Source: Candidatus Omnitrophota bacterium
Lineage (GTDB): Bacteria > Omnitrophota > Gorgyraeia > Zapsychrales > Fredricksoniimonadaceae
DNA length: 44,222 bases
Assembly: GCA_013286575.1 (NCBI GenBank)
Contig: JABDFL010000007.1
Coordinates: forward strand, 1-44,222
Direction of reading: 5' to 3'
The notes below the pieces were generated by a model. That model searched no databases and had not been told where the DNA came from. It saw only the letters and a list, made by a program, of their open reading frames with translations. The first letter of the stretch is position 1; every line of letters starts with the position of its first letter. Below, piece after piece: positions 26,567 to 37,762 of this stretch. A program made the translations under genes and the position numbers.

Positions 26567-26654
26567 GGAGAGGTGGCAGAGTGGCCGAATGCGGCGGTCT
26601 TGAAAACCGTTGCCTCGCGAGGGGCCGTGAGTTCGAATCTCACCCTCTCCGCCA
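26567..26654 (+). tRNA. tRNA-Ser (anticodon UGA), 3' CCA encoded; integration target
   Basis: An 88-nt class II tRNA. Acceptor GGAGAGG (26567-26573) pairs with CCTCTCC (26644-26650), followed by discriminator G and an encoded CCA. The anticodon stem CGGT/ACCG holds loop CTTGAAA with anticodon TGA at 26601-26603. There is a long variable arm (GCCTCGCGAGGGGC) and a T-arm with GTTCGAATC. The last 17 nt plus one flanking base are repeated at 37745-37762 as the other end of an integrated element. Confidence 0.96.
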
Positions 26655-26655
26655 T
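26638..26655 (+). repeat. attL direct repeat (3' end of tRNA-Ser)
   Basis: TCTCACCCTCTCCGCCAT, identical over 18 bp to 37745-37762; bases on both sides differ. It keeps the tRNA 3' end functional after insertion. Confidence 0.9.
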
Positions 26656-28079: not shown

Positions 28080-28922
28080 ATGAAATCAGATATTTTATTA
28101 TTAACAAAGAATACGAGAATAGCCAACGAGTTAAAGCATCTCTCTAATGCAAAGGTCCATACTGTTGGTGTTCCTTCTCAAATTAACAATATTTTTAAGA
28201 AGAATGGAAAGCATTTAGAGGTGGCTTTGCTTGATTTAACTTATCCAGAAGATGATCTCAATAGGTTTATTTTCTACATTAAACAGTATAAAAAAGACAT
28301 TCCTGTTTTATTGCTTAGTTCAAATCGCTATTTAAATGCAGAAAGCGAAGCTATGCGTAATCTATCTGTTTATGGATATATAAAACATCCGGAAAATATT
28401 GAGGAGATAGAAGAAATTTTAGAGGATTTGAACAGATTGTTTGAGCTCGATATGGACAAGAAATTCGATAAAGTTGATTATCTGGAAGGTGAAAAAGTTT
28501 TTGCATGCACTTTTAAGGATATGAAGAAGTATTTTCTTAAGCGAAGCAGTGTTCCTGATAATGTTGATAGTAAAATCACTGATATCGATATTGATAAAAC
28601 AGGATACCATTTTACTATTGAATATGCATCTGGTGAAAAATCCGTTATTCCCTGGGATTATGTGAAACATATGTGTGATGACAAGTACGAATATTATAGA
28701 ACCAACAATAAGACTGATGTTCCAGCTCATGAGATTGGACGGAGGATAAAAGAAATTCGTCAATCAAAGAAATTGACGCAAGATGAATTAGCTGTGAAAT
28801 CAGGTATTCAAAGGGCAAATATTGCCAGGATTGAATCAGGCAAACATAAGCCTTATTTAGAAACATTAGAGAAGATAGCTGGGGCGTTTAATATGCCTGT
28901 TGCCTATTTTATTGCACGTTAA
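28080..28922 (+). CDS. Pseudo-receiver / DUF2442-like / XRE helix-turn-helix regulator
   Basis: The 280-residue protein has three parts. Residues 1-120 look like a response-regulator receiver: Asp52 in LLDLTYPEDD, Ser80 in VLLLSSN, Lys102 in YGYIKHPE. The acidic pair that binds Mg is missing (ILLLTKN replaces ILIVDDD), so phosphorylation is doubtful. Residues 130-205 resemble DUF2442 (VFACTFKDMKKYFL, YHFTIEYASGEKSVIPWDYV). Residues 218-278 are an XRE HTH (IGRRIKEIRQSKKLTQDELA, SGIQRANIARIESG). The ribosome site is AGGAG. It probably represses its own promoter at 27811 and neutralises the DUF4160 partner. Confidence 0.75.
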   Translation: MKSDILLLTKNTRIANELKHLSNAKVHTVGVPSQINNIFKKNGKHLEVALLDLTYPEDDLNRFIFYIKQYKKDIPVLLLSSNRYLNAESEAMRNLSVYGYIKHPENIEEIEEILEDLNRLFELDMDKKFDKVDYLEGEKVFACTFKDMKKYFLKRSSVPDNVDSKITDIDIDKTGYHFTIEYASGEKSVIPWDYVKHMCDDKYEYYRTNNKTDVPAHEIGRRIKEIRQSKKLTQDELAVKSGIQRANIARIESGKHKPYLETLEKIAGAFNMPVAYFIAR

Positions 28923-28947
28923 TAAATATTATTCTTAAAAATAATAT

Positions 28948-28974
28948 GTCATTCCCGCGCAAGCGGGAATCCAG
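28948..28974 (+). repeat. GTCATTCCCG-type palindromic repeat
   Basis: GTCATTCCCGCGCAAGCGGG followed by AATCCAG: stem ATTCCCGC/GCGGGAAT. A diverged relative lies at 37414-37447 in the opposite orientation. Similar short palindromes are dispersed in many bacterial genomes. It lies just before the next gene's ribosome site. Confidence 0.65.
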
Positions 28975-28988
28975 AAACGGAGGCGAAC

Positions 28989-29384
28989 ATGTTAGGAAGC
29001 TTCTGTAGTAGGCTTGCTAACCATAATTACAGAATTCTATTGGTCGAAGCAGTAGTCCTGTCTGTAATAATAGGCGCCGGTCTTGCCTCATGGCCCGGAG
29101 TTATTGTTTTACTAGTGGCCTTAACGTGGGTATTGAGCAAACATTGGGGAACAATTTATTTGATTGGCATTTTTAGCAGTGCCTGGGGTTTCCTAGCCGG
29201 CATGATCGGTTATGGCATAGGTGGATGGGCTTGGACATTGCTATTGGGCATCTTGGCCTTAATAAGCGGTGTTAAGATTCACTTACGGGATCTGAAAAAG
29301 CCGCTTGTTGATGAAGTTTTTGAACAATTCAACAGTCAGCAATGGAGACAGAACTGGCATTTGGGACCTCAGAATTTGAATTAG
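28989..29384 (+). CDS. Small multi-pass membrane protein, unknown
   Basis: The 131-residue protein has three to four hydrophobic segments (about residues 17-33, 36-50, 56-75 and 78-95) rich in Gly/Ala (IIGAGLASWPGVIVLLVAL, GFLAGMIGYGIGGWAWTLLLG), then a polar cytoplasmic-type tail (DLKKPLVDEVFEQFNSQQWRQN). A good CGGAGG ribosome site precedes it and a strong terminator follows, so it is a monocistronic unit. No family is recognised. Its base composition is closer to the host than the rest of the element. Confidence 0.65.
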   Translation: MLGSFCSRLANHNYRILLVEAVVLSVIIGAGLASWPGVIVLLVALTWVLSKHWGTIYLIGIFSSAWGFLAGMIGYGIGGWAWTLLLGILALISGVKIHLRDLKKPLVDEVFEQFNSQQWRQNWHLGPQNLN

Positions 29385-29411
29385 AGTCAGTTATTTAGCT
29401 TCAAAATACTT

Positions 29412-29444
29412 ACCTCCTTATTTTATAAGGAGGTTTTTATTTTT
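29412..29444 (+). terminator. Rho-independent terminator
   Basis: Perfect 9-bp stem ACCTCCTTA (29412-29420) and TAAGGAGGT (29426-29434) with a 5-nt loop, then TTTTATTTTT. It ends the unit of the small membrane protein before the KAP ATPase cluster. Confidence 0.92.
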
Positions 29445-29469
29445 GGTAGTATAATCCTGTAATTGTAGA

Positions 29470-29498
29470 TACAGGACATGTAACGGGGATTATAAGTA
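29470..29498 (+). repeat. Recurrent intergenic motif, copy before the KAP ATPase
   Basis: TACAGGACATG then TAACGGGGATTATAAGTA. The same string with small changes occurs at 32832-32863 and shortened at 33327-33348. A TATAAT lies just upstream at 29450-29455. Confidence 0.6.
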
Positions 29499-29516
29499 AA
29501 AAGTATTTAAAAGAAT

Positions 29517-31790
29517 ATGTTTATGAGTAAAATTGCTAATTTAATTGAGAATTTATTTAAAAAGTTTTCTGTTAATAAGAAAACCAAAAAAATGTCCGGA
29601 GAGAAAAATAATCCAGCCGTAGATATTTTATCTAAGAATTCTTTTCTCTCAGATTCTCCTTTAACCGAATCTACAAAAGATGAATTTAAAAGAAGGCCTT
29701 TTGCTCAAAAACTAGCAAAAATAATATTATCTCATTTAGGGTCTGATAGCCTAGTGATCGGCATAAATGGGAAATGGGGAGAAGGAAAAACAACAGTACT
29801 AAAATTCATTGAGAACGAAATTAAAGAAGATCCTAATAAAGTCATTTGCATTTGGTTTAATCCTTGGGTATACAAGGACGAGGATCTACTGCTTCTGCAT
29901 TTTTTTAATAGCTTATCTACTGAATTACAAAAATCACTAAAATCATCTAAAGAAGTTGTTGGAGCATTAATAAAAAATGGAAGTTATGTATTTCCTACTT
30001 TTGATGTCTCGATGCCTGATGGATCAACAGTGGGAATTAATATCGGAGAAAGCTTAGAAAGATTTGGTGACAATTTATCGTCTGTTGACAACAGTGAGTT
30101 AAAAACTCGTCTAGAGAAAATATTAAAGGCTCTAGGAAAACGTATAGTCATCTTGATGGATGATATTGATAGACTTGACAAGAGTGAAATTCAGAATATT
30201 TTTAAGCTTATTAAATTGATGGCCAATTTCCCATATACAAATTATATTTTAACATTTGATCAGGAAATGGTTTCTAAAGCACTTGGTGAACAATACGGTG
30301 GAGGGTCAGAAGAAGGATGCAATTTTCTAGAAAAGATTATTCAGGTTCCCATTAATTTGCCGTTACTAGATAAGGCTTCGCTGCGCACGTATTGTTTTAA
30401 TATAATTAATGAAGTATTTAAGATGTCTAAAGTTGAACCGAATGAAGACCAAGCTAGGGAGTACGCAAGGTGTTTTGTAAATTTTCTAGAAATTAGACTA
30501 AAAACACCTCGAATGGCCAAAAGGTATGGGAATCTTTTAACTTTTATATTGCCACTAATAGGAAATGAAGTCAATTTAGTCGATTTGATGTTAATTGAAG
30601 GAGCTAGGGTTTTTTACCCGGATTTGTATACATTTATTAGGACAAAACAAGATTTATTTTTAGGTCTATATTTGGATTCTTTAGGCAGAAAACCGGAAGT
30701 AAAAACAAAAATTGTAAAATATATTAATGGATGTTTGGAAAATCTAAATGAAGATGAGAAGGATGCTGCGAGAGAATTGATAAAGTATTTATTCCCTACG
30801 CTTGAATGGGTATTTGGTGGTGCTGTCTATGATGGGCTTCAGTGGGAAGAAAAGTGGGCGGAAGATAAACGGGTTGCCTCTAGAGCTTATTATCGTAGAT
30901 ATTTTACTTATTCGGTTCCAGAGGGAGATATTTCTGATGAAGAGATCGAAGGATTTATAGTGAAATTAAAGGATTCTGATATTAATACTATCATATCGGA
31001 AATAAGGAAGCTGGTCGGCGAAACTAGAGCAGAAATTTTCGTTTCGAAACTTAAAGCATATGAAAAGAAATTTACGGTTGATGTTGCTCGCAACCTATCC
31101 TTAGCAATATCAAAATTAGGCAACATATTCCCTGACCCAGATATGATGTTTTCTGTTGGGCCTTTTTCTCAAGCCGCAATTCTTATTGGTCGTTTAATTA
31201 AACTGGTCCCACAGAATGAAGGTCGTTTTGATTTGGCAAAGACTATAATTACAGAGGGAGATCCTCTATATTTTGTAAGTGAGTGTTTTCTGTGGATAAA
31301 GGCCTCTAAAGAACACGAAGAAAATAGGTTATTAACAAAAGAAGAGGAAAAGCAGCTTGGCGCTATAATTGCTAACCGCGTAGAAGCGTTATCGAAAAAT
31401 GAAGTAATTTTTCTGAGTTTCCCTAAAGCTGCCCAACGTTTTTTATCAATGTGGTCCCAATGGGGGGATAAGAAAAAGGTACAACAGTATTTGGCTGACT
31501 TAATTAATACTGATTCGAAAAATGCAATTTTATTAATTAGGAGTTTTCTATCAAGATCGTATGGTGAGGATGGGGTACGACTAAAGAGTGATTTTGATAG
31601 AAATGGGTATGAGGTTATTAAGCAGCTTATTGATCCTGAAATTTTAATTAAAGGACTAACCAAATTATTTGGGGAGTTAGATGGTAAGACATATCGTCAT
31701 CTGGAAGACACGAAGGGTGAAGATGAAGACAAAATATTAGCAGAGCAATTTGTTTCCATTCATAATTATGCTAAGTCGGAGAATAAGTAA
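29517..31790 (+). CDS. KAP-family P-loop NTPase, candidate defence ATPase
   Basis: The 757-residue protein has a KAP Walker A, GINGKWGEGKTTVL (about residues 82-95), the W-F-N-P-W motif CIWFNPWVYKDEDLLLLHFF after it, and Walker B RIVILMDDIDRL (about residues 209-220), followed by the sensor-like LTFDQEMVSKALG. The long C-terminal half is helical and of unknown fold. The membrane helices that often interrupt KAP domains are absent here. KAP ATPases occur in antiphage systems such as Qat. The start is either 29517 or the ATG at 29523; neither has a clear ribosome site. It heads a run of co-oriented cargo genes. Confidence 0.85.
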   Translation: MFMSKIANLIENLFKKFSVNKKTKKMSGEKNNPAVDILSKNSFLSDSPLTESTKDEFKRRPFAQKLAKIILSHLGSDSLVIGINGKWGEGKTTVLKFIENEIKEDPNKVICIWFNPWVYKDEDLLLLHFFNSLSTELQKSLKSSKEVVGALIKNGSYVFPTFDVSMPDGSTVGINIGESLERFGDNLSSVDNSELKTRLEKILKALGKRIVILMDDIDRLDKSEIQNIFKLIKLMANFPYTNYILTFDQEMVSKALGEQYGGGSEEGCNFLEKIIQVPINLPLLDKASLRTYCFNIINEVFKMSKVEPNEDQAREYARCFVNFLEIRLKTPRMAKRYGNLLTFILPLIGNEVNLVDLMLIEGARVFYPDLYTFIRTKQDLFLGLYLDSLGRKPEVKTKIVKYINGCLENLNEDEKDAARELIKYLFPTLEWVFGGAVYDGLQWEEKWAEDKRVASRAYYRRYFTYSVPEGDISDEEIEGFIVKLKDSDINTIISEIRKLVGETRAEIFVSKLKAYEKKFTVDVARNLSLAISKLGNIFPDPDMMFSVGPFSQAAILIGRLIKLVPQNEGRFDLAKTIITEGDPLYFVSECFLWIKASKEHEENRLLTKEEEKQLGAIIANRVEALSKNEVIFLSFPKAAQRFLSMWSQWGDKKKVQQYLADLINTDSKNAILLIRSFLSRSYGEDGVRLKSDFDRNGYEVIKQLIDPEILIKGLTKLFGELDGKTYRHLEDTKGEDEDKILAEQFVSIHNYAKSENK

Positions 31791-31812
31791 ATTAAAGATG
31801 TAGGGAAAGGTA

Positions 31813-32781
31813 ATGAAAATGGAAGATTTGTTAAAAAATCTTAGAGATTCAATACTGGTAACGGTTATTACTATTATATTCACGTCTTTTGGGTTTAAAA
31901 CTTGGTTTGAGTATTTGATTCTTTTTTGTGTCGTTGTTGTCGTATTACAGGTATTAAAATTGTTTACTCCATTTGTGGTACTTTTAATGAATATAAAACG
32001 AAAATATTTAGTTAAAGTTGCGATTTTAAATGGTTCAATTTTTCAAACAGAAAAAGAACATAGGTGTGTTCGTACCTGGATAGGGATTACTCCAGAAATG
32101 TGGCGTAGGGCATTAATTCCTCTTTTTCCCTATTTTGGTAAATCATGGACTAGATCTTTGCATTTAATCCCTGTTACAGAAATTAATGATTCATGGTCAA
32201 TAATTATTAATCCGTTTGGAGATAATTTTCCAGAGAAAGATCAAAAGCTCCATGAAACCTTTTATAAAATATGCAGTTTTGTTTCCAATGGAGGGATTTT
32301 TATAGTAACGGGAGGAGCTTTCTTTTTGCATCAAAATCCAATTGTTTCAGAGAAAGCAGAGCTTTTCATGACTCATCTTATTGATGGTAAGCAGAATTTG
32401 GAGACATCATCATTGTTTCAAGAATTTGGCGTAAGGATGACAGGGGATGTCTATGAAAATAATCAGTTGGTTTCTAGTGAACCAGTTAGAGTAGGGGTTG
32501 AACAAACACAAGAAGACATTGAACGTTTTGGTAATGTTTTACAAGGGATTACTTCCTTAGAAAGATTCCGTTCCACATCTGCAGGGAGTTCTAACTACCT
32601 TCCTTTAATTCGGCAAATTGATGGATTAAATTTTCCCATTGCAATTATCCCGTATGGTAAAGGAGCATTAGTTCATATTGGTTTACATATTACGTCTGAA
32701 ACTTCCGATGAATTTAAAGTTGTTACACGGGTATTAACAAGTATTATCCAAAACAATATGCAAAGTGTGCTTGGTCAATAG
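31813..32781 (+). CDS. Membrane-anchored protein with amidotransferase-fold-like domain
   Basis: The 322-residue protein has two N-terminal hydrophobic segments (about residues 14-30 and 33-58), then a soluble domain. Features such as SWSIIINPFGDNFPEKDQ, FYKICSFVSNGGIFIVTGGAFF and the late FPIAIIPYGKGALVHIGLHI resemble the Rossmann-like class I glutamine amidotransferase/ThuA scaffold, in which SxGGxxV/IxxGG forms a strand-turn. No catalytic Cys at the expected place is visible, so it may be a ligand-binding sensor. The ribosome site AGGGAAAGG allows ATG 31813 or 31819. It sits between the KAP ATPase and a nuclease gene. Confidence 0.6.
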   Translation: MKMEDLLKNLRDSILVTVITIIFTSFGFKTWFEYLILFCVVVVVLQVLKLFTPFVVLLMNIKRKYLVKVAILNGSIFQTEKEHRCVRTWIGITPEMWRRALIPLFPYFGKSWTRSLHLIPVTEINDSWSIIINPFGDNFPEKDQKLHETFYKICSFVSNGGIFIVTGGAFFLHQNPIVSEKAELFMTHLIDGKQNLETSSLFQEFGVRMTGDVYENNQLVSSEPVRVGVEQTQEDIERFGNVLQGITSLERFRSTSAGSSNYLPLIRQIDGLNFPIAIIPYGKGALVHIGLHITSETSDEFKVVTRVLTSIIQNNMQSVLGQ

Positions 32782-32863
32782 GGATTATAAGAAGTAGGGG
32801 ATTATAAAAATATATCTCCTATAATAGAAGTTACAGGATATAACGGAGATTATGATAAGTAGG
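32781..32863 (+). repeat. Recurrent intergenic motif, double copy
   Basis: GGGATTATAAGAAGTAGGGG at 32781-32800 is followed by ATTATAA, a TATAAT at 32820-32825, then TACAGGATATAACGGAGATT and ATGATAAGTAGG ending at 32863. The second half matches 29470-29498. ATCTCC and GGAGAT flank the middle as an inverted pair. Confidence 0.55.
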
Positions 32864-32873
32864 CGTTAGTTAT

Positions 32874-33326
32874 ATGACTTTAAAGCCGGACGATTTAGAG
32901 ATGGTAATATTTGATATTCTAAAGAAAGAGCTTTCCTTAGATGACGTTCATATTTTTTTAGAGAAGAAGTTCTACGAGTCTTCTCAAAAATATCCCAATG
33001 TTAAAGATATGGTCGTATTTGTTACATATTTTTGCCAAGATCGGTTACGTTTTAAAGACAATCAAAAAGCAGAAATTATTAAAGTAGATCTATTATCAAG
33101 GGATTTTTCTGCTCAAACTGGTGTGATGGATATTCAAATGGCTTTAAAATCAAAATATGCCAGAGAACAACAGGAAAAATTTAATATCAATATCCTTAAT
33201 ACAAGTGAACCAATGGATTTGTCTTCACTTGAAGGAAAAGGCATTCGATGTAGGTATGAAATAAATATTACAGTTTTAAATAATTCACATTCCATTGATT
33301 TTGATTCTAGAAAATTGTCAAGATAG
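32874..33326 (+). CDS. Small protein of unknown function, helical N-terminus
   Basis: The 150-residue protein has an all-helical N-terminal part (LEMVIFDILKKELSLDDVHIFLEKKFYESSQKYPNVKDMVVFVTYFCQDRLRF, residues 8-60) that resembles effector-associated or death-like adaptor domains in length and pattern. The rest (residues 65-150) looks like alternating strands with no known motif. It has no signal peptide or membrane segment. The ribosome site is weak. It is flanked by recurrent intergenic motifs and lies directly before the nuclease gene. The adaptor idea is inference only. Confidence 0.6.
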   Translation: MTLKPDDLEMVIFDILKKELSLDDVHIFLEKKFYESSQKYPNVKDMVVFVTYFCQDRLRFKDNQKAEIIKVDLLSRDFSAQTGVMDIQMALKSKYAREQQEKFNINILNTSEPMDLSSLEGKGIRCRYEINITVLNNSHSIDFDSRKLSR

Positions 33327-33348
33327 CAGGGATTATGATAAATAGGGA
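33327..33348 (+). repeat. Recurrent intergenic motif, short copy
   Basis: CAGGGATTATGATAAATAGG then GA, matching the 3' half of 32832-32863. It overlaps the AGGGA ribosome site of the nuclease gene. A weaker copy (AATAATAGGGACTATCAT) lies at about 34378. Confidence 0.55.
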
Positions 33349-33355
33349 AAATTAA

Positions 33356-34366
33356 ATGTTTGAACCACTTCAATTTGAGAAGTTAAATGAGGCAGATGTC
33401 AGAGAAGAAATACTGGCGCCTCTAATTAATGCTTTAGGTTACCGTTCAGGGGATATTAATGGGGTTATCCGCGAGCAATCACTACGGTATCCACAAATTT
33501 TCTTAGGACGAAAAGACCCTAGAAAAGATCCTCTTTTGAGAGGTAAGGCAGATTATATACTTGAGGCGGGAGAAAGGGTCAGGTGGGTTCTCGAAGCAAA
33601 AGCGCCAGATCGTGAAATTCTTATTGATGATATTGAGCAGGCTTGGAGTTACGCGAATCACCCTGAAGTACGTGCTGTATATTTTGTTCTGTCCAATGGA
33701 CGGACTTTTCATGTTTACCAGACAAGAAACGGCCCCAATGTGGCACCGATTTTTATTTTAAAATACGAGGAATTGTCAACTAACCTCTCTCGCGTTAAGA
33801 ACCTCTTGGGTCCAGAGGCGATTCTTCGTGATAATCCATCTATTATTCCTGATACCGGGGAACCTCTAGGAACTGGGCTTCGATCAGTAGCTCGTATTAC
33901 TGGTGGGTTTATTAAATATGAATCTAATTCAGTTGGGTTGGCTGCTCTTAATGAATTGCAAGTAGCGATTTCTGAAGGAGCGGTTGAGAGGAATGAAACA
34001 GGGAAAATGGTAGCTTTCCTTAAAACATTAAGCCCTATTCGTTCCTTTCAGGAACTTAATGATCGACTTGGCTTATCATCGTTTGAGATGGTTAGCGAGA
34101 GCGGTGTTCTCTCTGTAGATCGTCAATTGCCAACAAGATTTTCATATGATAATACAATTATATTTCCAAAGGGTGAGCGTTTGTTGAACCTTTTGACGTG
34201 GGAGAATGTTGTTTTACCGTTTAATTTGTCATGTCATGTGCAGGCTGAGGCAATGGGGATTCTTATAGGACACAAATATTCAGGAAGATTTTCGACCGAA
34301 ATACGGTATGTTGAGCAACCTTTAGTTGTAAAAGTAATTGGTGTATTTGAACTAACTATCGTGTAA
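33356..34366 (+). CDS. HsdR-N-like PD-(D/E)xK nuclease
   Basis: The 336-residue protein opens with the type I restriction R-subunit N-terminal nuclease pattern: NEADVREEILAPLINALGY (Glu-rich first helix), VIREQSLRYP, RGKADYIL with Asp66 and WVLEAKAP with Glu80-x-Lys82, then IDDIEQAWSYANHPEVRAVYFVLSNGRTFHVYQ. The catalytic D...ExK is complete. No helicase or specificity domains follow; residues 200-336 are an unrecognised C-terminal region. It is probably a stand-alone DNA-cutting effector of the cargo cluster. A good AGGGA ribosome site lies 8 bp before the ATG. Confidence 0.82.
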   Translation: MFEPLQFEKLNEADVREEILAPLINALGYRSGDINGVIREQSLRYPQIFLGRKDPRKDPLLRGKADYILEAGERVRWVLEAKAPDREILIDDIEQAWSYANHPEVRAVYFVLSNGRTFHVYQTRNGPNVAPIFILKYEELSTNLSRVKNLLGPEAILRDNPSIIPDTGEPLGTGLRSVARITGGFIKYESNSVGLAALNELQVAISEGAVERNETGKMVAFLKTLSPIRSFQELNDRLGLSSFEMVSESGVLSVDRQLPTRFSYDNTIIFPKGERLLNLLTWENVVLPFNLSCHVQAEAMGILIGHKYSGRFSTEIRYVEQPLVVKVIGVFELTIV

Positions 34367-34425
34367 TAAGTGGAAATAAATAATAGGGACTATCATATTT
34401 TGAAAATATAATGGGAGAGCAATCT

Positions 34426-35547
34426 ATGCTTTTAGGTCAGTGGATGGGACCAGTTGGGAATGGTACTAATAAAGGTTTTGTTATTGTAAATTTTGAATCT
34501 TATATCGAGAGAGAAGGTATGTGGACTGGACGTTTTTGTTTCACAGATGATGATAAGACTTTGGCTAATTTCTTTGGAATAGTGCAAATTAAAAAAGAAG
34601 GTGATAAATATAATGGTTTAGCGTTTGATTTTTTTATTTCAAACACTGAGAAGAATATTCTAGAAAGCAGAGATTCTTGGTTAACCCACCATAGGGAATC
34701 TAATTTTCCTAAATTAATAAAAATTACTAACGGAGTTTGTGACGGATCAATTCTAAAAGCGCAATATCAGTCTGATGCTTCCACAAATGGTGATTTTATC
34801 GTACATAAGATTGACACTGATACCGTTATTAGCCCAAAAAAGATTTTTACTTGGAAAGATTTCAAAGCGTGGATTGATAGTAGAAAAAAAGGACTCTTAT
34901 TTAGGGGGCAAAGAGATAGCCAGAAGCTAAAAACATCATTTCATCGCCACGGGAGAAATGATCTTATTCGTTATTTTCAGAATGATTTTCAAACTCTCGG
35001 GCATAACATGAATTCTTTAAAGGATTATACCTATAACCTTAATGATAGTACGGATAGAAATGCATTAATAAGTGTTGCTCAGCATCATGGTTTTCCAACA
35101 CCTTGTTTAGATTGGACAGAATCGCCGTATATAGCTGCATTTTTTGCATTTGAAGGAATAGATAAACGAAACGTCAATCAAATATCAAATGTAAGAATTT
35201 TTGTTTTTGATTATGGAGAATGGTCTAAACCAGAAAACCCCAATTATTATATAAAAGGGAATTTTTTAGATACTAGGCCTTCTTTAGTATTTCATTTGTT
35301 CCCAGCTGTAAATAATGATCGCGCTTTACCGCAGCAGTCGGTGTTTATGTTTTCAAATATTTCTGATATTGAGAGCTGGGTTCATCATTGTGAGGGGATT
35401 GGTAAGGAGTATTTATATTGCTTTGACTTGCCATATTCTGAACGTCAATTAGCAATGGATGATTTACGATCAATGGGCGTAACTCACGCATCTTTATTCC
35501 CTGGGAAAGATGGTATTTGTAAGTCTTTAAGGGAAAGATTGTTTTGA
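34426..35547 (+). CDS. FRG-domain protein
   Basis: The 373-residue protein has a beta-rich N-terminal half (FVIVNFESYIEREGMWTGRF) and an FRG domain in the C-terminal half: LLFRGQRDSQKLKTSFHRHG, SVAQHHGFPTPCLDWTESPYIAAFFAF, PQQSVFMFSN. FRG domains are found in defence and toxin contexts and have been likened to ADP-ribosyl-processing or nucleotide-binding enzymes, but their activity is not firmly known. I prefer the ATG at 34426, with GGGAG 8 bp upstream, over the ATG at 34411, which lies at that ribosome site. Confidence 0.8.
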   Translation: MLLGQWMGPVGNGTNKGFVIVNFESYIEREGMWTGRFCFTDDDKTLANFFGIVQIKKEGDKYNGLAFDFFISNTEKNILESRDSWLTHHRESNFPKLIKITNGVCDGSILKAQYQSDASTNGDFIVHKIDTDTVISPKKIFTWKDFKAWIDSRKKGLLFRGQRDSQKLKTSFHRHGRNDLIRYFQNDFQTLGHNMNSLKDYTYNLNDSTDRNALISVAQHHGFPTPCLDWTESPYIAAFFAFEGIDKRNVNQISNVRIFVFDYGEWSKPENPNYYIKGNFLDTRPSLVFHLFPAVNNDRALPQQSVFMFSNISDIESWVHHCEGIGKEYLYCFDLPYSERQLAMDDLRSMGVTHASLFPGKDGICKSLRERLF

Positions 35548-35582
35548 AATTAAATAGTTTGGTTTTAACGCGTTAGCTAATT

Positions 35583-35611
35583 TTGACAGAAGGGTAATTA
35601 AGGTTTATAGT
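35583..35611 (+). promoter_or_regulatory. Strong sigma70-type promoter
   Basis: TTGACA at 35583-35588, 17-bp spacer, TATAGT at 35606-35611. Start site expected near 35618, giving a leader of about 50 nt before the ATG at 35670. It is preceded by a TAACGCGTTA palindrome at about 35567. Confidence 0.7.
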
Positions 35612-35669
35612 ATGAATCTATTTCATTTTAATATTAACCATTTTATTAGAAACAACAGGAAATAAAAGT

Positions 35670-36059
35670 ATGGCAAACACTTTAGAGTACCTTTTTACTT
35701 GTGGTCGTGTAATAAGAGATCAAACTTCAGGATTATTTACTTATGTTGATGGATTTGACACTCTTTTTATTCCAAAAGAGTCTGATTTTCTTTATCAAAA
35801 TATATGTATTATAGCAAGAGTATATTATGCTGTTGGCGGTATTGTTAAAGCAGAAATAAGGTTTGTAGATCCAGATAGGGTTGATTCAACCCCAGTAGTT
35901 ATAACAGGAGCTATGTCCCCTGGTTATATTCAACTCGCGGCCGCTTTTCCAATACAAAAGTTTACTAAAGTAGGTAAATACTATATGAAAATAAAATTTC
36001 AAGACGTAGAATTGGAGAATGAAAACAAATTTTATTTTGAAGTCTTAAAACGACAATAA
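35670..36059 (+). CDS. Small beta-rich protein, possibly DUF6941-like
   Basis: The 129-residue protein has predicted strands throughout (LEYLFTCGRVIRDQTSGLFTYVDGFDTLFIP, CIIARVYYAVGGIVKAEIRFVDPD, YIQLAAAFPIQKFTKVGKYYMKIKFQDVELENENKFYFEVL), an arrangement like C2/Ig-type sandwiches and like small DUF6941 proteins. It has its own strong promoter and an AGGA ribosome site. The next gene follows 5 bp later, so the two form a small operon. Function unknown. Confidence 0.6.
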   Translation: MANTLEYLFTCGRVIRDQTSGLFTYVDGFDTLFIPKESDFLYQNICIIARVYYAVGGIVKAEIRFVDPDRVDSTPVVITGAMSPGYIQLAAAFPIQKFTKVGKYYMKIKFQDVELENENKFYFEVLKRQ

Positions 36060-36064
36060 TATTT

Positions 36065-36430
36065 ATGCCTGATCAATCACAAATTCCGCCTCCGGATACT
36101 CCTAAGGGACAGGGTTTAGATGGGAAACAGTCTCCAGATTCCCCTCAGAATCTCGAAGCAAAACTTTTAGAAAAAGTTGAAACTCTAGCAGAACAAATAA
36201 AACTAGCTACTAGCGATATTAAGCTGGGCAAAGAAGATCTTCAAAAAGGCAAAGAGGATATAAAGGCAACAAAAGACATAGTATATTTTGGGTTTATCAT
36301 TCTATTATTTATGTTTGGTTTATCAATAATTCAATCTTGGGATGAAAAAACTCGATCTAACATGACATTAATAGATAAAGTCGATTCTTTACAAACTCAG
36401 CTTAAATTACTAGAACAATCAAATAATTAA
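36065..36430 (+). CDS. Coiled-coil single-pass membrane protein, unknown
   Basis: The 121-residue protein has a Pro/Gln-rich N-terminus, a charged coiled coil with near repeats (DIKLGKEDLQKGKEDIKATKD, residues about 25-72), one membrane helix (IVYFGFIILLFMFGLSIIQS, residues 73-92) and a short second coiled coil (MTLIDKVDSLQTQLKLLEQ). It is translationally linked to the upstream gene (5-bp gap, no own ribosome site). It could be the membrane anchor or pore partner of the beta-rich protein. No family recognised. Confidence 0.6.
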   Translation: MPDQSQIPPPDTPKGQGLDGKQSPDSPQNLEAKLLEKVETLAEQIKLATSDIKLGKEDLQKGKEDIKATKDIVYFGFIILLFMFGLSIIQSWDEKTRSNMTLIDKVDSLQTQLKLLEQSNN

Positions 36431-36553
36431 ATTTCACCTAATGTCTCACCTTATACGTCGGAGAATCTTCCGGCCGATTATAGTAATATTTCCTGTAATA
36501 ACATTTTCAGGATGTAAACGTATCAGGTTTATTACAATTTCATTACAAAATCA

Positions 36554-36590
36554 TTACAACTGTCCGTAACGAAGTTGTAATTTTTTATTT
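36554..36590 (+). terminator. Rho-independent terminator
   Basis: Stem TTACAACT (36554-36561) and AGTTGTAA (36573-36580) followed by TTTTTTATTT. It is preceded by three near-direct CATTACAA repeats. It closes the cargo operon. Confidence 0.75.
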
Positions 36591-36596
36591 CTGTAA

Positions 36597-36714
36597 CTCT
36601 CCCATTGGCAAGGGGTTTTCGGGATGAAGCTCCCGAAACCGCGGCAGACCACTCCCCCTCAACGATAAAGCGAGAGGGGTAGTGGTCTGCCGCTACCAAT
36701 TGCCAATGGGAGAG
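36597..36714 (+). ncRNA. Large three-way-junction inverted repeat, candidate structured RNA or DNA site
   Basis: Outer stem: perfect 15 bp, CTCTCCCATTGGCAA (36597-36611) with its complement at 36700-36714. Inner arm 1: GGTTTTCGGGA (36614-36624) with TCCCGAAACC (36631-36640), one bulge. Inner arm 2: perfect 13 bp, GCGGCAGACCACT (36641-36653) with its complement at 36681-36693, extended by CCCCTC/GAGGGG and capped by a 13-nt loop. The nearly gap-free junction suggests selection for structure. It could be an ncRNA, a cruciform protein-binding site or a replication/recombination site. The strand of transcription is not known; plus is given by default. Confidence 0.6.
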
Positions 36715-36974
36715 AGTAGGTATTTAGAGAGGTAGTATAAGTTAAGTGTAGTTAGTAGAGGTATGAGATGAATGATGAATAGGATGTATGGTTGGGTAGG
36801 TTATGTTGAAGGGTGGGTTGTGTTGATGGATTAGGATGTGTTGATGAGTAAGTTGTTGTTGAAGGGTGGGTTGGGTTGATGAATTAGGAGGTGTTGTGTT
36901 GGTTGTTTTGTGGGTTGTTTGGGGTTTAGGGAGGGTGTTGATAGGATGGTTGTTAGTGGTTATGGAATGTTGTT
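36705..36974 (+). other. 270-nt tract with no cytosine on the plus strand
   Basis: From the A after C36704 to the base before C36975 the plus strand contains only A, G and T. It begins inside the right arm of the three-way-junction repeat. It is rich in GGGTGGGTTGGG-type runs, so G-quadruplexes are possible on the plus strand. Short open frames through it are low-complexity (Val/Leu/Trp/Gly) and not convincing genes. Confidence 0.95.
36804..36896 (+). repeat. Direct repeat within the cytosine-free tract
   Basis: Two 40-nt units at 36804-36843 and 36857-36896 (period 53), both starting TGTTGAAGGGTGGGTTG, matching at 37 of 40 positions. Confidence 0.85.
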
Positions 36975-37206
36975 CCAGTTTCGGTCATGAAAAGTATATA
37001 CTGCGGGAGCATCCCCAAAATGCTCCAGGCGTTGTATTGATAGGAATAATTGACTTATCGGCTTGTTATGGTATTATACAAATATTGATTAATAATCAAT
37101 TATAGTTTGATTAATTATATGTAAGCTCAATTTCTTTTCCCAAATAAGGTTATTGAACTTTCAAGATGCGTTTTTTGTATCTTGAAAATTTTATGGGGGA
37201 AAAGAA
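36975..37206 (+). promoter_or_regulatory. Promoter, operator and leader hairpins of the excisionase-like gene
   Basis: A hairpin GGAGCAT/ATGCTCC lies at 37006-37026. The promoter is TTGACT at 37050-37055 and TATTAT at 37072-37077 with an extended -10 TG at 37069-37070. Directly after it an inverted repeat ATTGATT-AAT-AATCAAT (37084-37100) could be an operator. The leader contains a perfect 9-bp hairpin TTTCAAGAT (37159-37167)/ATCTTGAAA (37179-37187) shortly before the GGGGGA ribosome site. Confidence 0.6.
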
Positions 37207-37452
37207 ATGGAGAGATTATTGAAGATCAACGAAGTTAGCGAAATGTTGCAGATGAGTCCTAAGACGATTTATCATTGGGTGCATTGTGGGAGTATTCCTT
37301 ATTTTAAAGTTTATCGTGAGCGTGGTGCTGCTGGGGTTATTCGGTTTAGGCAGTCGGATTTGGAGAAGTGGTTGCAGGTGAGGAGGCAAAATAAAAATCG
37401 GTTAAGTGCTATGTCTGGATCCCCGACAGAAGCATTCGGGGATGACAATTAG
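37207..37452 (+). CDS. Excisionase-like HTH_17 protein (recombination directionality factor candidate)
   Basis: The 81-residue protein has an AlpA/excisionase-type winged HTH: LLKINEVSEMLQMSPKTIYHWVHCGSIPYFKVYR, then VIRFRQSDLEKWLQVRRQ. Its place near attR, with a well-made promoter, fits an excisionase for the integrase at the other end. The ribosome site is GGGGGAAAAG. The last 12 residues (SGSPTEAFGDDN) come from a palindromic repeat that has entered the 3' end of the gene, so the original C-terminus was probably different. Confidence 0.8.
   Translation: MERLLKINEVSEMLQMSPKTIYHWVHCGSIPYFKVYRERGAAGVIRFRQSDLEKWLQVRRQNKNRLSAMSGSPTEAFGDDN
37414..37447 (-). repeat. Palindromic repeat at the 3' end of the excisionase-like gene
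   Basis: TCTGGATCCCCGACAGAAGC then ATTCGGGGATGACA: stem TCCCCGA/TCGGGGA. It is related to 28948-28974 in reverse orientation (TCATCCCCG, then GGATCCAGA). It encodes the last residues before the stop of the host gene. Confidence 0.65.
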
Positions 37453-37536: not shown

Positions 37537-37556
37537 TGTGCCCATGTTTGGGCACA
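37537..37556 (+). repeat. TGTGCCC palindrome, right end copy 1
   Basis: TGTGCCC-ATGTTT-GGGCACA, perfect 7-bp arms. Same core as the left-end motif at 26727. Confidence 0.65.
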
Positions 37557-37595
37557 AAATCGGAAAGTGTTCAAGTAAAAGGTTTTTATTAATTT

Positions 37596-37616
37596 TGTGC
37601 CCAAATTGAGCCCATG
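37596..37616 (+). repeat. TGTGCCC motif, right end copy 2
   Basis: TGTGCCCAAATTGAGCCCAT plus one G; one mismatch in 21 to the left-end copy at 26727-26747. Same orientation. Confidence 0.7.
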
Positions 37617-37744: not shown

Positions 37745-37762
37745 TCTCACCCTCTCCGCCAT
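37745..37762 (+). repeat. attR direct repeat
   Basis: TCTCACCCTCTCCGCCAT, exact 18-bp copy of the tRNA-Ser 3' end. Flanking bases do not match, so this defines the right boundary of the element. The next gene starts 22 bp later. Confidence 0.9.

Follow-up and report, generated by a model that had tools for sequence, protein, structure and literature searches.

The window analysed here, a stretch of 44,222 nucleotides from a Candidatus Omnitrophota genome, contains an island of about 11 kb integrated at a tRNA-Ser gene. In this study, we found that a three-way-junction inverted repeat near the right end of this island is a real and conserved site. Our results indicate that this junction is very probably the origin of transfer (oriT) of a MOBC-type system (TraX/MobC, with a restriction-endonuclease-like relaxase), used by a defence island that lacks its own relaxase. 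Because the island carries no relaxase gene beside the site, the function that we assign to the window copy rests on its relatives. The features of the island and of the site are collected in Table 1.

Table 1. Features of the tRNA-Ser island and of its putative oriT (positions in the window)
Feature	Position	Strand	Basis
tRNA-Ser(TGA), integration target	26567..26654	+	ARAGORN, Rfam
attL, 18-bp direct repeat TCTCACCCTCTCCGCCAT, equal to the tRNA-Ser 3' end	26638..26655	+	
Tyrosine integrase, 361 aa	26722..27807	+	Pfam PF00589, E 2e-29
Cargo; starts: HTH regulator 28080, PifA-like KAP NTPase 29517, HSDR_N-like 33356, FRG protein 34411, DUF6941-like 35670, small protein 36065	28080..36430	+	Pfam, PADLOC
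Direct repeats of the probable oriT, putative relaxase binding site	36527..36582	+	Autocorrelation, p 0.003
Foot 5' of the outer stem (GTAAC including the first stem base)	36593..36596	+	f1 alignment
Three-way-junction inverted repeat, putative nic-containing oriT core	36597..36714	+	Fold, stem search, covariation
Cytosine-free G/T-rich tract, 270 nt	36705..36974	+	
Promoter-like motif common to the ICE relaxase/tra operon, here upstream of xis	37124..37179	+	
xis-like HTH_17 protein, 81 aa	37207..37452	+	Pfam HTH_17, E 7e-13; TIGR01764
attR, second copy of the 18-bp tRNA-Ser repeat	37745..37762	+	

Structure and layout of the site

The junction is built from a perfect 15-bp outer stem (36597-36611 / 36700-36714) that encloses two arms. 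Arm 1 has 8 bp (36617-36624 / 36631-36638), and arm 2 is a perfect 13-bp stem (36641-36653 / 36681-36693) which extends to 20 positions with one mismatch (36641-36660 / 36674-36693). The first-pass annotation of this DNA had described the same inverted repeat, with its 15-bp outer stem, two arms and 13-bp stem, and we recovered it at identical positions. Its judgement that the repeat is too regular for chance is borne out by folding. As RNA, the region 36580-36730 reaches -85.6 kcal/mol, as compared to a mean of -43.0 for 200 dinucleotide shuffles, none of which was as stable (z -11.2). The minus strand of the junction region folds equally well (z -11.4). Among the eight aligned f1 copies of the junction, the TAAC of the foot is invariant and the loop ACCATA is kept in seven. 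Directly past the outer stem come AGTAGG on the plus strand and TTACAG on the minus strand. This lack of a T-run speaks against an intrinsic terminator for the junction. A smaller terminator-like hairpin with a T-run is located upstream of the junction, at approximately 36535-36590.

The order of the elements is fixed: direct repeats of 11-12 bp are followed by the junction, and the junction by a cytosine-poor tract. In the window, the sequence ATTACAA occurs at 36531, 36542 and 36553, with a spacing of 11 bp, and the inverted form TTGTAAT at 36575. Neither these repeats just upstream of the junction nor the tRNA-Ser-integrated island in which the site is set had been recognised in the first-pass annotation. 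The cytosine-free tract had been noted and is indeed present beside the repeat; it already begins within the 3' half of the outer stem. Across 30 sites, tandem repeats with a period of mostly 11-12 bp were detected on the 5' side in 20, the window included, and on the 3' side in one (p<=0.05 per site, 300 approximate shuffles). The C content of the flanking 200 nt fell below the 5th percentile of a background of 8,898 windows on the 3' side of 22 of these sites and on the 5' side of three. These layout statistics leave out opposite-strand echoes of the sites, G019:C84 (which has no junction fold), G178, G189, G154 and G210:C43, and the 30 sites are partly non-independent, comprising tandem copies and related genomes.

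Conservation and covariation

When 141 related genomes, that of the window among them, were searched at the DNA level, seven gave matches, and several of these have junction copies that are 69-88% identical. A covariance model built from eight junction copies (R1) matched 20 of the 384 genomes of the phylum, distributed over five families, and 10 of the 32 genomes of the family of the source genome. When 30 sequences were aligned to the model, two-sided changes were found in 35 of the 41 base pairs. The covariation score of this alignment was 0.62, versus 0.17 after shuffling and at most 0.20 with slid partners; the alignment was fitted to the model and is hence biased to the model's own structure. 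The outer stem is variable at every pair. Arm 2 retains a GACC..GGTC core, and 13 of its 19 pairs covary. The first-pass annotation had proposed a covariance search as one way to check the structure, and in the homologues that we collected the pairing is kept by compensatory changes rather than lost.

Two further searches addressed the stems themselves. A stem search that is blind to mismatch type covered 34 sites, namely the 30 mentioned above, L048, L049 and two in L050. Scans for exact patterns on the outer stem matched one genome contig, from the REEB160 Omnitrophota MAG, and no viral contig.

One contig (G003:C3, L023:14980-15994) bears three tandem junctions within about 1 kb, all in the same orientation, each with its own distinct direct-repeat sequence and its own C-poor tract. 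Judging from its sequence, this triple site looks like an array of three oriTs, each specific for a different helper.

Linkage to a MOBC-like relaxase family

The commonest gene found 3' of the site belongs to a single family, F0. At the N-terminus, the F0 proteins have a region that resembles a winged helix, and they share an invariant PD, ExE, K pattern, the winged-helix and PD-(D/E)XK readings having been made by eye. The five members that were compared with the NCBIfam model 'MobC family replication-relaxation protein' all matched it with E values of 2e-6 to 2e-15, below the curated cut-off, and one member gave a match to Pfam Replic_Relax just under the cut-off. Among PDB sequences, the relaxase profile gave only a chance-level match, and the viral contigs searched with the relaxase alignment contained no relative.

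We detected F0 in 28 of the 384 genomes and the junction in 20, and both were present in 15 (Fisher p 1.5e-15, with kinship not corrected for). The site and F0 share a contig in 18 pairs, 17 of them from the main count and the 18th (G060:C10, with a gap of 52.6 kb) added to these. In every pair the gene is preceded by the site and both have the same orientation; the gap measures 27-852 nt in 14 pairs and 10-53 kb in the other four. An R1 match is absent from 13 of the 28 F0-positive genomes. A second covariance model, R2, built from 30 Omnitrophota sites, found a site in 21 of 33 F0 loci. Among the 23 F0 loci that were not used in the model, a site was found in 11, and in all 11 it is located 5' of F0 and on the same strand, as determined by coordinates. 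Five site-positive genomes (G000, G002, G017, G019 and G046) gave no F0 match, two of which, G002 and G017, are at least 94% complete. The existence of such genomes fits the expectation for relaxase-less hitchhikers.

Comparison with known MOBC plasmids

TraX of plasmid pAD1 has been experimentally shown to be a MOBC relaxase. The protein is akin to restriction endonucleases and has a winged helix at its N-terminus, and its binding target is a set of five direct repeats situated about 70-120 bp from nic (PMC12857230). Plasmid pAM373 is MOBC by PLSDB typing. In pAD1 and pAM373, Francia and Clewell reportedly described in 2002 a large inverted repeat beside short direct repeats, with specificity residing in the repeats. 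We found that four enterococcal plasmids, including pAM373, have 11-12-bp repeats and then a deep fold upstream of the MOBC relaxase gene. Repeats and fold sit between a TraG-like gene and the relaxase gene. The fold is three-armed in pAM373 and in that of E. faecalis L135 and has a related shape in the other two, and the arm-2 core of these enterococcal sites is TTCCTGACC..GGTCAGGAA.

The model R2, which contains Omnitrophota sites only, matched Bacillota plasmids from E. hirae (E 1.9e-8), Carboxydocella (6e-8) and E. faecalis (1.3e-4, on the opposite strand). At E <= 10 it gave no match in pAM373, in the E. mundtii plasmid or in an Enterobacter MobC plasmid; for pAM373 and E. mundtii, it was the fold alone that revealed the site. 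A clear C-poor tract, with 1 C in 60, is seen in pAM373 and E. faecalis L135. In E. hirae it is less marked, and neither E. mundtii nor Carboxydocella has one.

The pAM373/pAD1 oriT resembles the Omnitrophota sites in its 11-12-bp repeats, in the three-armed inverted repeat of about 120-140 nt, in the MOBC relaxase gene that comes next and in the arm-2 core TGACC..GGTCA. In pAM373 and L135, the sequence AACTAC stands past arm 2. On the other hand, the outer-stem and repeat sequences differ, the hosts of the plasmids are not Omnitrophota, and the C-poor tract is long in the window but short in pAM373 and L135. Unlike the plasmids, moreover, the window copy is not accompanied by a relaxase gene.

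The host island and its predicted helper

The integrase occupies the left end of the island and the xis-like gene the right end. Compared with TIGR01764 (excise), the xis-like protein scores 27.7 bits (E 2.5e-6), where the cut-off is 28.8. PADLOC matched two of the cargo proteins, one to PifA (E 6.5e-83) and another to PDC-S15 (E 5e-41), and the FRG-domain protein represents a candidate defence family. The PifA-like KAP NTPase, at 29517-31787, is a homologue of a phage-exclusion protein. A 131-aa protein encoded at 28989-29384 has no Pfam match; it is kin to genes near the sites in L021, L084 and L096 (family F12), and this family is a possible backbone gene of these elements.

A Pfam search of the 11 main ORFs of the island, from int to xis, found no relaxase, coupling protein or T4SS gene. 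Likewise, no match to a MOBC-like relaxase, to TraG_C/T4CP or to TraC/VirB4 was obtained in the assembly to which the window belongs, a genome that is 52% complete. When we looked for an empty tRNA-Ser site in relatives, flank matches were seen, with no tRNA-Ser beside them.

In 33 loci scanned, the promoter-like motif upstream of xis occurs only five times: before xis in the window, and before F0 in L020, L022, L028 and L096, the last of these being assigned to F0 by coordinate (G027:C143:27769). With no conjugation genes of its own and with xis behind an ICE-type motif, the island looks like a relaxase-less mobilisable island of the iOriT type. Integrative mobilizable elements of this class have an oriT and lack relaxase or mating-pore genes (PMC11389934). 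The gene content of the window island is the same, including the integrase, xis and att repeats at a tRNA gene by which the class is recognised; here, the assignment is a prediction made from sequence, and the helper is not in the assembly.

The ICEs that bear the site carry TraC/VirB4, VirD4/TraG, xis and an integrase. The G010 element is bounded by a tRNA-Pro gene and, at the other end, by a 40-bp duplicate of a section of that gene, and contains the site, an ArdA-family gene (assigned by similarity), F0, TraC/VirB4, VirD4/TraG, a xis-like gene and an integrase. The same order is found in G006:C47, with about 34 kb, metabolic cargo included, between the site and F0; the distance from site to relaxase gene is 12-34 kb in these two ICEs. 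The F0 protein of G006:C47 is 254 aa long. The repeat unit ATTACAA is common to the window and the G006:C47 ICE (ATTACAACT), and the junction regions of both are 87% identical, which makes a G006-type ICE the predicted helper that would drive the window island.

The metabolic genes of G006:C47 (L018-L020), an apparent ICE, include those for the nitrate reductase alpha subunit, an anaerobic ribonucleotide reductase and NadA, among others. They are placed between the oriT and the tra operon.

Alternative explanations

The first-pass annotation had left two readings side by side, a new structured RNA of this element family and a hairpin DNA site for replication or mobilisation. The second is the one that held up, because pairing is kept by double-sided changes and relatives of the site adjoin MOBC relaxase genes, and the RNA reading is not supported. 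A structured non-coding RNA made from either strand, such as a mobilisation RNA, would account for the stable three-way fold and for the loop ACCATA kept in most f1 copies. There is also a precedent, since SGI1 requires a self-encoded sRNA that is encoded beside its oriT (PMC9299015). However, the site matches no Rfam family, and among the 569 cells of arm 2 we counted 540 Watson-Crick pairs, 0 G-U, 9 A-C and 20 others, which is unusual for an RNA transcribed from the plus strand. The stems delimited without regard to mismatch type gave a similar picture on the plus strand, with 13 A-C and 0 G-T in 34 sites; the A-C excess is inflated by related rows, arm 2 perhaps representing five independent events. 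The presence of A-C in the absence of G-U speaks against an RNA from the plus strand and would agree with folding of the minus strand, be it as RNA or as single-stranded DNA. In the fitted alignment, G-U cells amount to 12 in the outer stem, versus 11 A-C, and to 19 in arm 1. The counts hint at folding of the minus strand, but the signals outside arm 2 are mixed, and from the location of ardA, ssb and relaxase genes 3' of the site one would expect the opposite leading strand. The extreme perfection of the long stems and the cross-phylum linkage to relaxases fit DNA processing better. Overall, we regard a non-coding RNA as unlikely.

As a DNA site, the junction could instead be the place where the excised element starts vegetative or rolling-circle replication, with the repeats as iterons. 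The iteron-like 11-bp repeats beside a large hairpin are in line with such an origin, as is the name 'replication-relaxation' of the neighbouring gene family. Nevertheless, the site is linked to T4CP and T4SS genes, the replication initiator of pAM373 is encoded more than 10 kb from the equivalent site, and TraX, the MOBC prototype, is experimentally a relaxase (PMC12857230), so that we judge a replication origin very unlikely. The frequent position of the site between co-directional genes, together with the tandem triplicate of G003, might also recall an attC-like cassette boundary or recombination site that joins defence genes without any transfer. attC sites have an R-box layout, for which a mirrored foot would be expected. 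The 5' TAAC foot has no mirror on the 3' side in most copies, and the close same-strand linkage of the site is to one gene family, the relaxase; an attC-like function seems highly improbable. Finally, the link to a relaxase family was the reason to set aside several other readings that were considered: an integron attC, a terminator, a minus-strand Rho rut site, a type III toxin-antitoxin system and a retron msr-msd.

Proposed mechanism and implications

For the oriT that we favour, the transfer mechanism that we infer would start when a helper ICE enters the cell or is induced. The activator of the helper would turn on the motif that is common to the ICE tra operon and the island xis, and the island would excise. 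The MOBC relaxase of the helper would bind the 11-bp direct repeats via its winged helix and nick within the three-way junction, which would fold once the DNA becomes single-stranded. Export of the strand would be mediated by the coupling protein and the F-type T4SS of the helper, and the refolded junction would serve in rejoining.

Comparable systems are known in other bacteria. In SGI1, xis is activated by AcaCD of the helper (PMC9299015). MGI/SGI1 islands are like the window island in that they are integrated with int and xis, find their conjugation parts in trans and have xis behind a helper-type promoter. They differ in phylum and relaxase class, and SGI1 itself encodes mobilisation proteins, with an oriT that is unrelated. 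Non-conjugative replicons of staphylococci carry mimics of the oriT of the pWBG749 family, in several subtypes (PMC8136818). They resemble the window island in having an oriT that imitates that of a conjugative family. Unlike the island, these replicons are plasmids. The relaxase family of pWBG749 differs from MOBC.

More tentatively, at a little less than an even chance, we propose that MOBC relaxases across phyla read a common DNA shape code, and that relaxase-less islands collect addresses for several helpers. In such a code, an exchangeable 11-bp direct-repeat 'address' would set the specificity, the three-way junction beside it would be conserved in shape and variable in sequence, and the cytosine-free strand would keep the adjoining single strand unstructured. 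The tandem sites of G003, with three different repeats, would then be three addresses for different helpers.

The MOBC oriT and the iOriT island are known kinds. In the literature searched, we found no description of an oriT with a three-way junction and a relaxase, nor of a cytosine-free oriT. Relative to that literature, what appears to be new is the shape model that spans phyla, together with the C-poor tract and the Omnitrophota system. The usual way to find origins of transfer is to look for similarity in sequence to the few that are known. The covariance model detects sites of the MOBC type even where the sequences are unrelated, in Omnitrophota as well as in plasmids of Bacillota. With this approach, oriTs and relaxase-less hitchhiker islands of the MOBC class could be listed directly in genomes. 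Moreover, an uncultured phylum gains a concrete conjugation and mobilisation system, which suggests how its defence islands could spread, and DNA recognition by the non-covalent MOBC relaxases becomes testable.

Other sequence elements

Several smaller elements were observed around the site and at the ends of the island. A short hairpin motif, GGGAGCATCCCCAAAATGCTCC, lies past the C-free tract at 37000-37035, and similar motifs are found near the sites in G003 (L023) and G006:C1 (L027). In other loci, hairpins of the form CGTGTCAAGG..CCTTGACACG are located 3' of the C-poor tract near ardA-like genes (L018:11450-11537, L021:10161-10235 and L021:11579-11661), and are possibly single-strand promoters of a leading region. 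A perfect 12-bp inverted repeat, ATTTCTTTTCCC (37130-37141 / 37197-37208), brackets the promoter region of xis and runs into the start of the gene, which makes it a candidate operator. Near attR, at 37547-37605, there is an inverted repeat, TTTGGGCACAAAAT, and a related one, GTGCCCAAATTGG, is placed just upstream of 26722, near the integrase start; both are likely integrase arm sites.
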